Of a stretch of 64,000 bases of DNA, positions 13,851 through 33,390 are shown piece after piece. The stretch spans positions 1 through 64,000 of the forward strand of contig JADIMA010000040.1 of the NCBI GenBank assembly GCA_017694945.1, read 5' to 3'. The number at the start of each line of letters is the position of its first letter. The stretch's first letter is position 1. Origin of the DNA: Candidatus Merdivivens pullicola (lineage in GTDB: Bacteria; Bacteroidota; Bacteroidia; Bacteroidales; UBA932). Made by a program: the position numbers and the translations under genes. The notes under the pieces were generated by a model. It saw only the letters and a program-made list of their open reading frames with translations, was not told the origin of the DNA and searched no databases.

Positions 13851-13911
13851 TATCCTTTTCCCATTCTCCGCAGGAATTCCGAAACCTCATGGTTTGCGGA
13901 TAAAAACATAA

Positions 13912-14100
13912 CGGCAGGTCTCCTGGCTCGTTCCGGCCGCAACGCCTTCCCATTATCCTGTCATTGCTGACATGTTAACAGTGGCAGTCGAATGTGCGGT
14001 CTTGCCCGTTTAATGGCGGAACTTACAGTAGCGGGAACTGCATCCGGTTTTCACGGATTTCCCTTTTATTTTCCTGTCCCGGACGGAACAGGAAAAACCG
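13912..14100 (-). promoter_or_regulatory. Cobalamin riboswitch
   Basis: Minus strand: AAGGGAAATCCGTGAAAACCGGATGCAGTTCCCGCTACTGTAAG ... GAGCCAGGAGACCTGCC, hallmark B12-box/aptamer sequences. Confidence 0.93.
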
Positions 14101-14110
14101 TTACAGTCGG

Positions 14111-14118
14111 CAAAGATA
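14111..14118 (-). promoter_or_regulatory. -7 element TATCTTTG driving riboswitch-btuB transcript
   Basis: CAAAGATA on + strand just upstream of the aptamer. Confidence 0.5.
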
Positions 14119-15970: not shown

Positions 15971-16354
15971 TATTATTCGCAAAAATACCCCTTGAAGAAT
16001 AACCGGGTACGCCTTCTTTGGGCCGCGCCACGACTTAATTTAAAAATATTGCAATATATTGATATATAGTGAATTGCTATTGTAACAATATTTTATAAGT
16101 GTGGATTCTGAGGGGTTCGGAAGCCCTTGAAATCCACACTAATTTTTCGTGATGTATGTTGTTTTCCTCTGATTTACAATGTGTTGTGTAAACAAAAGTT
16201 AGGTCGGGGCGTGGCCTTGAGTGCACGACACCGCATTGCTCGGCGCAACCGTTCCGCAATGTGATAAGAGTTTCGGGAAAGTGCCCGTGATTCCGGCAAA
16301 TCCTTGGCACTTTTCCCTCATCCGCACACATAAGGGGTATTTTTGCGGATAATC
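15971..16354. repeat. Dispersed palindromic repeat element, copy A (MITE/BIME-like)
   Basis: TIRs TATTATTCGCAAAAATACCCCTTG (15971) and GGGGTATTTTTGCGGATAATC (to 16354); inner 43-nt near-palindrome 16098-16140; reverse-complement homolog at 25621-25967. Confidence 0.85.
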
Positions 16355-16476
16355 ATAAAAAAATATCCCTTCTTGCATCGTCGCCTGCGCCATTTGCCCT
16401 GCGGGCCGGAAATGGCAGGTCACATCCCGGCAATACAATATTGAATAAATCCGTTTGCAATGCTCCATGCTTTTCG

Positions 16477-25558: not shown

Positions 25559-25620
25559 TTTACAGTTAAATTTAGCGGCTGCAAAGTTAGGAACTGTTTC
25601 GATTTTTTCTAAAAAAATAC

Positions 25621-25967
25621 GATTATCCGCAAAAATATCCCCTTGTATGGGAGAAAGTGCCTTCCGGCAGTATGCTCCGGGCATGGTGGCCTGAATCGTG
25701 CAACGGCATGAAGCGCACCAATGCCACGCCCCGACTTAATTTTTGTTTATACAACCCATTGTAAATCAGTAATAAACAACACGCACCACGAAAAATAAGT
25801 GTGGATTTCAAGGGCTTCCGAACCCCTCAGAATCCACACTTATAAAATATTGTTACAATAGTAATTCGCTATATATCAATATATTGTAATATCTTTGAAT
25901 TAAGTCGGGGCGTGGCCCAAAGAAGGCGTATCCGCTTATTCTTCAAGAGGTATTTTTGCGGATAATC
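25621..25967. repeat. Dispersed palindromic repeat element, copy B (inverted relative to copy A)
   Basis: TIRs GATTATCCGCAAAAATATCCCCTTG / AAGAGGTATTTTTGCGGATAATC; nested IRs GCCACGCCCCGACTTAATT...AATTAAGTCGGGGCGTGGC; 43-nt near-palindrome 25798-25840 identical to copy A. Confidence 0.88.
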
Positions 25968-26018
25968 ATAAAAAAAAATTATTTTTGCAATCCGGCTTGT
26001 GTGTTGCCGGTTAAAAAT

Positions 26019-32717: not shown

Positions 32718-33309
32718 CGGGTGCAGCGTGCTTGCCGTGACTGGCGGGATAGGAGCCGGGAAAAGTCACGTGTGCCGGATTTTTTCTTCAAGGCACGGTA
32801 TTCCGGTATATGATTCGGATTCGCATGCCAAATCTTTGTACGATACTGATCCAGTCCTGTTGGACAAGGTCAGGATGATTGCCGGCAATGACATAATTTC
32901 CGGCGACGGGAAACTTCTGCGTTCCGTGCTTGCAGCAAAGATATTCAATGACGCTTCCATGCTTTCGCGTGTGGAGGCGGAGGTGTTTCCCGCCGTGATG
33001 CGGGATTTTTACAACTGGAAGGCCCGTGTGGAAGGCTCAGTGCGTTTTGTCATAATAGAGTCGGCCATCTTCCTTGCAAAGCCTATTCTTTATCCCATGG
33101 CGGATAAAGTGCTTTACGTTGACGCCCCTTTGGAATTGAGGATAGCGCGTGTAATGCGTCGCGACGGCGTCGCGCGTGATGCGGTATTCGAGCGGATTTC
33201 AAACCAGCCTCCGGTCGATCTGTCGAATGCTTCCTGGATTATTGATACTTCTCTCGGACAGGAAAGCATAGAAAAATCAGTCGAGGACATAGTGGCTTCC
33301 TTTTCATGA
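32710..33309 (+). CDS. coaE: Dephospho-CoA kinase (start probably MNSGCS at 32710, overlapping ybbR)
   Basis: LAVTGGIGAGKSHVCRIFSSRHGIPVYDSDSHAKSLY. Confidence 0.93.
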   Translation: MNSGCSVLAVTGGIGAGKSHVCRIFSSRHGIPVYDSDSHAKSLYDTDPVLLDKVRMIAGNDIISGDGKLLRSVLAAKIFNDASMLSRVEAEVFPAVMRDFYNWKARVEGSVRFVIIESAIFLAKPILYPMADKVLYVDAPLELRIARVMRRDGVARDAVFERISNQPPVDLSNASWIIDTSLGQESIEKSVEDIVASFS

Positions 33310-33390
33310 AGAATAGCCGGATATGCCTTATTCGGGACACGGCACGGCTATGGAAATATCGGGGTGATTTTGCGGATAATCAATAAAAAA
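33305..33390. repeat. Internally deleted copy C of the dispersed palindromic repeat
   Basis: GAAGAATAGCCGGATATGCCTTATTCGGGACACG aligns to arm GAAGAATAAGCGGATACGCCTTCTTTGGGCCACG of copy B (reverse complement), followed by tip GGGGTGATTTTGCGGATAATCAATAAAAAAA. Confidence 0.7.

Follow-up and report, generated by a model that had tools for sequence, protein, structure and literature searches.

A dispersed repeat of Candidatus Merdivivens pullicola is probably a RAYT-associated palindromic unit housed in an IS1595-family MITE

A noncoding repeat with two copies in the 64-kb stretch of Candidatus Merdivivens pullicola DNA analyzed here (the window) is very probably a composite, in which a RAYT-associated, REP-like core lies, at this locus, inside an IS1595-family MITE; mobilization of the core by the RAYT is presumed. 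RAYTs (REP-associated tyrosine transposases) are Y1/HUH single-strand transposases. They are widespread domesticated transposases, and little has been described of what they act on in Bacteroidetes. The genomes examined here contain a RAYT together with its presumed substrate and dozens of dispersed copies of the latter. The nesting of the units, together with the bracketing of RAYT genes, points to an atypical REP-like family hitchhiking in a MITE and documents one mobile element carrying the presumed substrate of another. A preliminary description of this DNA had called the repeat MITE/BIME-like, a term that proved right twice over, for the IS1595-family MITE shell and for the RAYT-associated, REP/BIME-like core nested within it.

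Two nested units in the window

The window belongs to a 1.89-Mb genome of 87 contigs (G000); all assemblies used were drafts, and genes were called simply as longest open reading frames. A direct sequence check showed that copies A and B are both present in the window as reverse-complement homologs. The outer inverted repeats of ~24 bp, an inner inverted pair of copy B (GCCACGCCCCGACTTAATT/AATTAAGTCGGGGCGTGGC), and a 43-nt near-palindrome common to both copies, all described previously, were confirmed in the sequence. What had been taken for a single repeat unit, however, consists of one unit nested in another, with an inner unit of exactly 192 bp in A as well as B. The arm that had appeared to diverge between copies is a mosaic stretch connecting the outer left end to the core.

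Copy B, first delimited as 25621 to 25967, is a real repeat, but its outer element runs from 25619 to 25969 (351 bp, plus strand), with ends ACGATTATCCGC.../...GCGGATAATCAT, and an A-rich repeat, AAAAAAAT, flanking this shell is compatible with a target duplication. The 192-bp palindromic core occupies 25724 to 25915 (plus strand; covariance model match of 212.5 bits). Sequence and family pairing define its terminal inverted repeats at 25724 to 25740 (plus) and 25899 to 25915 (minus), and a central hairpin at 25797 to 25841, centered on the unit midpoint, is supported by pairing of core positions 74 to 91 with 101 to 118 across 57 copies and by changes on both sides of the stem. Next to the hairpin is an A-run (25791 to 25795, minus strand; columns 69, 70, and 72 invariant and 71 nearly so). 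The left arm carries the motif TTGTAAATCA(A/G) at 25759 to 25769 (plus; conserved positions 36 to 46), and a TTGTATATCAA-like motif, diverged in copy B, occupies the mirrored positions 147 to 157 in the right arm (25870 to 25880, plus). The core is separated from the outer ends by the mosaic left filler, which varies between copies (25645 to 25723), and by a right filler, CCCAAAGAAGGCGTAYCC... (25916 to 25943), whose length varies between copies while that of the core does not.

Copy A has its shell at 15971 to 16356 (minus strand; one end degenerate and no target duplication seen), its 192-bp core at 16023 to 16214 (minus; 187.7 bits), and its central hairpin, again from sequence and family pairing, at 16097 to 16141. 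A solo remnant consisting of an outer MITE end and right-filler sequence was matched by the outer-end pattern at 33306 to 33383 (minus) and is followed by a strong hairpin. This pattern had five matches in the window, compared with 0.00 expected from shuffles. According to the simple ORF calls, copy B separates two divergent open reading frames, and copy A is intergenic as well. Neither copy had been credited with a plausible ORF, and we likewise found no reading frame open across copies; stop codons in all six frames of the core units rule out a coding role. A stem that had been noted in copy B, TTGTTTAT/ATAAACAA, does form there, but the family as a whole does not conserve it, and the same holds for the cloverleaf side-arm stems of that copy. 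Two other structured features of the window are a recurrent hairpin at 16275 to 16316 (GGGAAAGTGCC...GGCACTTTCCC), which serves as filler in copy A and recurs in the loci of many relatives, beside cores in one congener (G002), and a cobalamin riboswitch at 13896 to 14117 (minus; 94.9 bits).

Distribution of the repeat

A search of G000 with positions 25615 to 25975 found ~40 places, many of them at contig ends; the units break metagenome assemblies. With further copies in two congeners, Candidatus Merdivivens pullistercoris (G001) and "Muribaculum sp. An289" (G002), the family is real. Both congeners share only the central ~200 bp with the window repeat. Core units are dispersed in intergenic DNA. 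Among 84,980 species genomes scanned, the core pattern occurred outside Merdivivens only on two ~3-kb contigs of one Candidatus Onthomorpha MAG; these units (L086 and L094) are close to the G001 copies, and the contigs are probably misbinned. Genome-wide pattern matches in Cylindrospermum, Alistipes, Mucilaginibacter, and others were attributed to chance. No relative of the core was found in plasmid and phage collections, and in viral contigs the single pattern match is not the unit, while the outer ends and the units of genus g6 (see below) are absent.

The outer shell is an IS1595-family MITE

The terminal inverted repeat of the shell is AYGATTATCCGCAAARATACCCC. Ends beginning GATTATCCGC... 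were also found in elements that lack the core (L064, of 140 bp, and L072, of 108 bp), and in further genera of the family they enclose unrelated noncoding sequence. Shared flanks of 8 to 10 bp, taken as target duplications, were present in 12 of 25 two-ended shell elements, and the mean shared stretch was 6.52 nt versus 4.58 ± 0.28 nt in shuffled pairs (0 of 1,000 shuffles as high). A transposase with matching ends exists in related genera: a 7.6-kb segment in G200 (L138; G200:C6:5579-13163) has perfect ends and a 9-bp duplication and encodes an IS1595-family transposase (PF12762, 8e-20) plus other genes. Among the cargo of this IS1595-type transposon are genes for a radical-SAM/SPASM and a WG-repeat protein. 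In other genomes, homologous transposases also show this end ~100 bp upstream of the start codon, with two and three mismatches in 23, and a complete 1,022-bp IS has ends AATGATTACTAAATKTTATACCTAA. Shared terminal inverted repeats, duplications of 8 to 10 bp (~8 bp being that of the family), and matching transposase ends together identify the outer shell as an IS1595-family MITE. The three Merdivivens genomes (G000 to G002) yielded no IS1595 transposase, so that mobility of the shell there is extinct or the assemblies miss the transposase.

The same observations—outer ends, 8- to 10-bp duplications, transposases with matching ends, and a shell on most copies in G000—would be expected if the whole repeat were an IS1595-family MITE with the core as passive internal filler. 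We consider this very improbable, since the core occurs without a shell in G002 and beside a RAYT gene in G000, its length is fixed while the filler of the same copies varies, and analogous units stand beside RAYTs in a related genus. Bare cores also differ from the shell in lacking a target duplication of the DDE type (shared flank of 4.0 nt observed versus 4.24 nt shuffled), as is expected of RAYT-associated repeats. We observed no movement of units and, for bare ones, came upon no pair of filled and empty sites. IS4/IS231-like ends were considered for the core and rejected, no PF01609 transposase with matching ends being found.

The core has a nearly fixed length

Core candidates were defined as two terminal repeats (≤4 and ≤5 mismatches) 170 to 215 nt apart in loci of G000, G001, G002, and Onthomorpha. 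Sixty-six were found, and 63 of these scored >140 against copy B: 57 measured 192 nt, and the others 191 nt (three), 193 nt (one), 174 nt (one), and 213 nt (one, in which a 192-nt copy was read to an alternative right end). Thus, 61 of 63 span 191 to 193 nt, within a search window that misses indels leaving it or destroying an end; two copies (L028 and L030) have large internal deletions. Conservation, pairing, and tree analyses used only 192-nt sequences scoring >150 with duplicates removed (57 distinct sequences), a set that is uniform in length by construction, so the evidence for a fixed length is the distribution before filtering. This set has a lowest pairwise identity of 0.52 (in G002), and its tree holds about 1,700 substitutions.

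The fillers provide a control, one that was designed once we were already aware of the fixed length. In 18 G000 copies with a recognizable right filler (52 nt), this filler differed from 52 nt in 9, although, with filler ends matched at ≤3 mismatches, individual lengths may be one base out; all 18 cores were 192 nt. With indels proportional to length, the chance of zero core indels is 9e-7, or 3e-5 when the two large deletions are counted. Vertical inheritance tells a similar story. Four copies occupy the same locus in both G001 and G002; in one orthologous pair the cores are 82% identical without an indel beside an indel-rich upstream flank, and in a second the cores are 68% identical, both 191 nt, with the hairpin nearly unchanged. 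RAYT action does not by itself explain the exact length of such old, vertically inherited copies. A geometric requirement of the RAYT fits new copies better than old ones, and a host-level or continuing selective role is therefore possible. A sister unit (L156, L157, L159, and L173) with ends CCGGGAACGCCCCGACTTAAC and a different center (TCCACGTGGA) is only near-fixed in length, at 193 to 196 nt plus one unit of 212 nt with an expanded A-run.

Two conserved helices and what they imply

On either strand, two helices are conserved across copies: a terminal stem (1 to 18 with 175 to 192) and the hairpin (74 to 91 with 101 to 118), whose center is the midpoint of the 192-nt unit. The layout is thus a terminal stem of 16 to 18 bp, a midpoint hairpin, and equal arms of ~55 nt. 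Across 21 diverse copies, 89.3% of cells pair, versus 87.2 ± 0.6% when shuffled and ≤45% when slid, and changes on both sides occur at 8 pairs, versus 6.6 ± 1.4 in shuffles. Covariation is real but modest. Among stem mismatches, G-U is no more frequent than A-C, whichever strand is read; with the modest covariation, this balance makes no case for selection on RNA. Rfam yielded nothing over any family's gathering threshold, its subthreshold miRNA and leader matches being chance, and the earlier suggestion of a mobile structured RNA finds no support on these grounds.

Positions 69 to 72 (AAAA) are almost invariant, so that the minus strand reads as a hairpin followed by T's, as in a terminator, and 38 of 57 right-hand neighboring genes read into the element (simple longest-ORF calls). 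Copies are also kept at orthologous sites, and palindromic candidate RNAs were mostly predicted terminators in one survey (PMC8040213). The core might accordingly be read as mainly a cis-acting RNA or terminator for host gene control whose link to a RAYT is incidental. That is very improbable in our view: termination needs neither a 16- to 18-bp terminal stem nor a fixed length of 192 nt, the stems have no G-U bias, and RAYT genes are bracketed by units in two genera. Another reading of the inverted repeats around ~160 bp is an invertible segment, that is, a phase-variable promoter between recombinase sites, and one core, in L016 (G000:C35:8190-8381), is indeed flipped relative to its fillers. 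It is the sole such case seen (about 1 in 28), orthologous copies keep their orientation, and the right-hand gene usually points toward the element rather than away from it, all of which makes inversion extremely improbable.

A RAYT gene lies between core units

In G000, a 283-aa RAYT gene (L300, contig C76) lies between two core-family units at 837 to 1027 (191 nt, 154 bits, 1.2e-23) and 1969 to 2161 (193 nt, 110 bits, 1.9e-16), which are part of 205-nt inverted repeats on both sides of the gene that the covariance model assigns to the 192-bp family. Orthologues have units on both sides in G002 (80% identical) and at least on one side, downstream, in G001 (92% identical). Core units do not flank the remaining RAYT genes of Merdivivens. 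The L300 RAYT falls below the Pfam Y1_Tnp threshold and was found only with a relative's protein, the G001 RAYT, as the query; it matches NCBIfam REP_Tyr_transpos at 2.5e-7, with 30.7 bits against an NCBIfam cutoff of 80. The protein nevertheless has the HUH motif and the catalytic tyrosine with NP that mark a RAYT, and HxH, Y104, and NP are invariant in 13 homologues. The best PDB match of its predicted structure (pLDDT of 82.5) is 4er8 (E value of 2.3e-4), a RAYT bound to a REP hairpin.

We infer that the core is a nonautonomous, REP-like unit of a RAYT encoded elsewhere in the same genome. The RAYT would recognize the unit folded as single-stranded DNA, through the terminal stem and central hairpin with the arms as spacers, and would cut it and copy it to new sites, as proposed for REPs and REPINs. 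Transposition of the shell, presumably mobilized in trans, may have spread the composite to most of the ~40 sites in the window's species. Inserted units would persist with their length nearly fixed, and the hairpin with its A/T-run probably acts also as a transcription terminator at gene ends.

Parallel units in a related genus

We built a covariance model from 21 units and searched 148 relatives with it; the model matched the genus Merdivivens and, weakly, two sequences in G098, of genus g6. The latter are 177-nt palindromes with ends CACGWTGCTTTTTAGTT (L190:579-755). A pattern allowing 164 to 184 nt found units in 10 of 19 g6 genomes, all 177 or 176 nt long, and the 177-nt units, on which pairing was computed, have a stem of 1 to 18 with 160 to 177 and a hairpin centered on position 89. 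Two such units bracket a 316-aa gene in three species (G070, G110, and G132), and one is left beside it in G143, G154, and G174. The gene product is a weak match to Y1_Tnp (0.002) and reaches 1.6e-6 against REP_Tyr_transpos. An inverted-repeat scan revealed more g6 RAYT paralogues (L307, L298, and L309) lying between units that have terminal inverted repeats of their own; the remaining g6 RAYTs had short hairpin arrays or nothing obvious. L302, L301, and L293 are among those in which arrays of short REP-like hairpins take the place of the long units. Sequence homology of the 192- and 177-nt units was not established, the two having in common their architecture and the weak covariance model match.

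Considering both genera, we tentatively propose that these may represent a distinct kind of long RAYT substrate, with pairing ends, a centered hairpin, and equal arms serving as a ruler, in which length rather than sequence is selected. At least two Bacteroidales genera would then have such substrates in parallel, in different sizes (192, 177, and 173 nt), and the units would repeatedly have boarded IS1595-type MITEs. With a design rule of near-fixed length and a centered hairpin, a geometric model of recognition can be put directly to the test.

Comparison with known systems

The preliminary description recognized no named family, which is correct as far as the sequence goes. The kind, however, has been described before: genes for TnpA_REP in Bacteroidetes have been reported to be flanked by "atypical secondary structures" (PMC6006769). 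The units fit the published description of these structures in kind. TnpA_REP subclass 2.6 (Bertels group 5) belongs to the same phylum and likewise combines a RAYT flanked by unusual palindromes with copies elsewhere in the genome, but its tyrosine motif is YIH[QN]NP and its median length 179 aa (PMC6006769), compared with YVLRNP, in all three Merdivivens orthologues, and 283 aa here.

Canonical REPs have hairpins of 20 to 40 nt. Our unit, at 192 nt with a central hairpin of ~45 nt, is far longer than the REPs we found described in the literature, and the canonical GT[AG]G was not found 5′ of the hairpin foot, GTGG occurring within the stem of the central hairpin and at the 3′ terminus. We found no literature precedent for the unit length, the single centered hairpin, the parallel families of 192, 177, and 173 nt, or the residence in an IS1595-type MITE. 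Closer in organization are the REPINs of Pseudomonas (PMC3116915), which are also symmetric, dispersed, nonautonomous, and found next to a RAYT, with a fixed end-to-end distance and conserved ends around a looser spacer. However, REPIN ends are REP hairpins ~71 bp apart (PMC3116915), whereas here the ends pair mutually and a single hairpin stands in the middle of 192 nt.

The shell has its own relatives. Like other IS1595-family MITEs, it has a terminal inverted repeat, an 8- to 10-bp duplication, and transposases with matching ends in related genera; it differs in carrying a RAYT-type unit as cargo and in a host genus where no transposase was found. The Porphyromonas gingivalis MITEs (MITE239 and BrickBuilt; PMC4596501) are, like the composite described here, intergenic MITEs of Bacteroidales with internal repeats, but they have IS5-type ends and an unrelated sequence.
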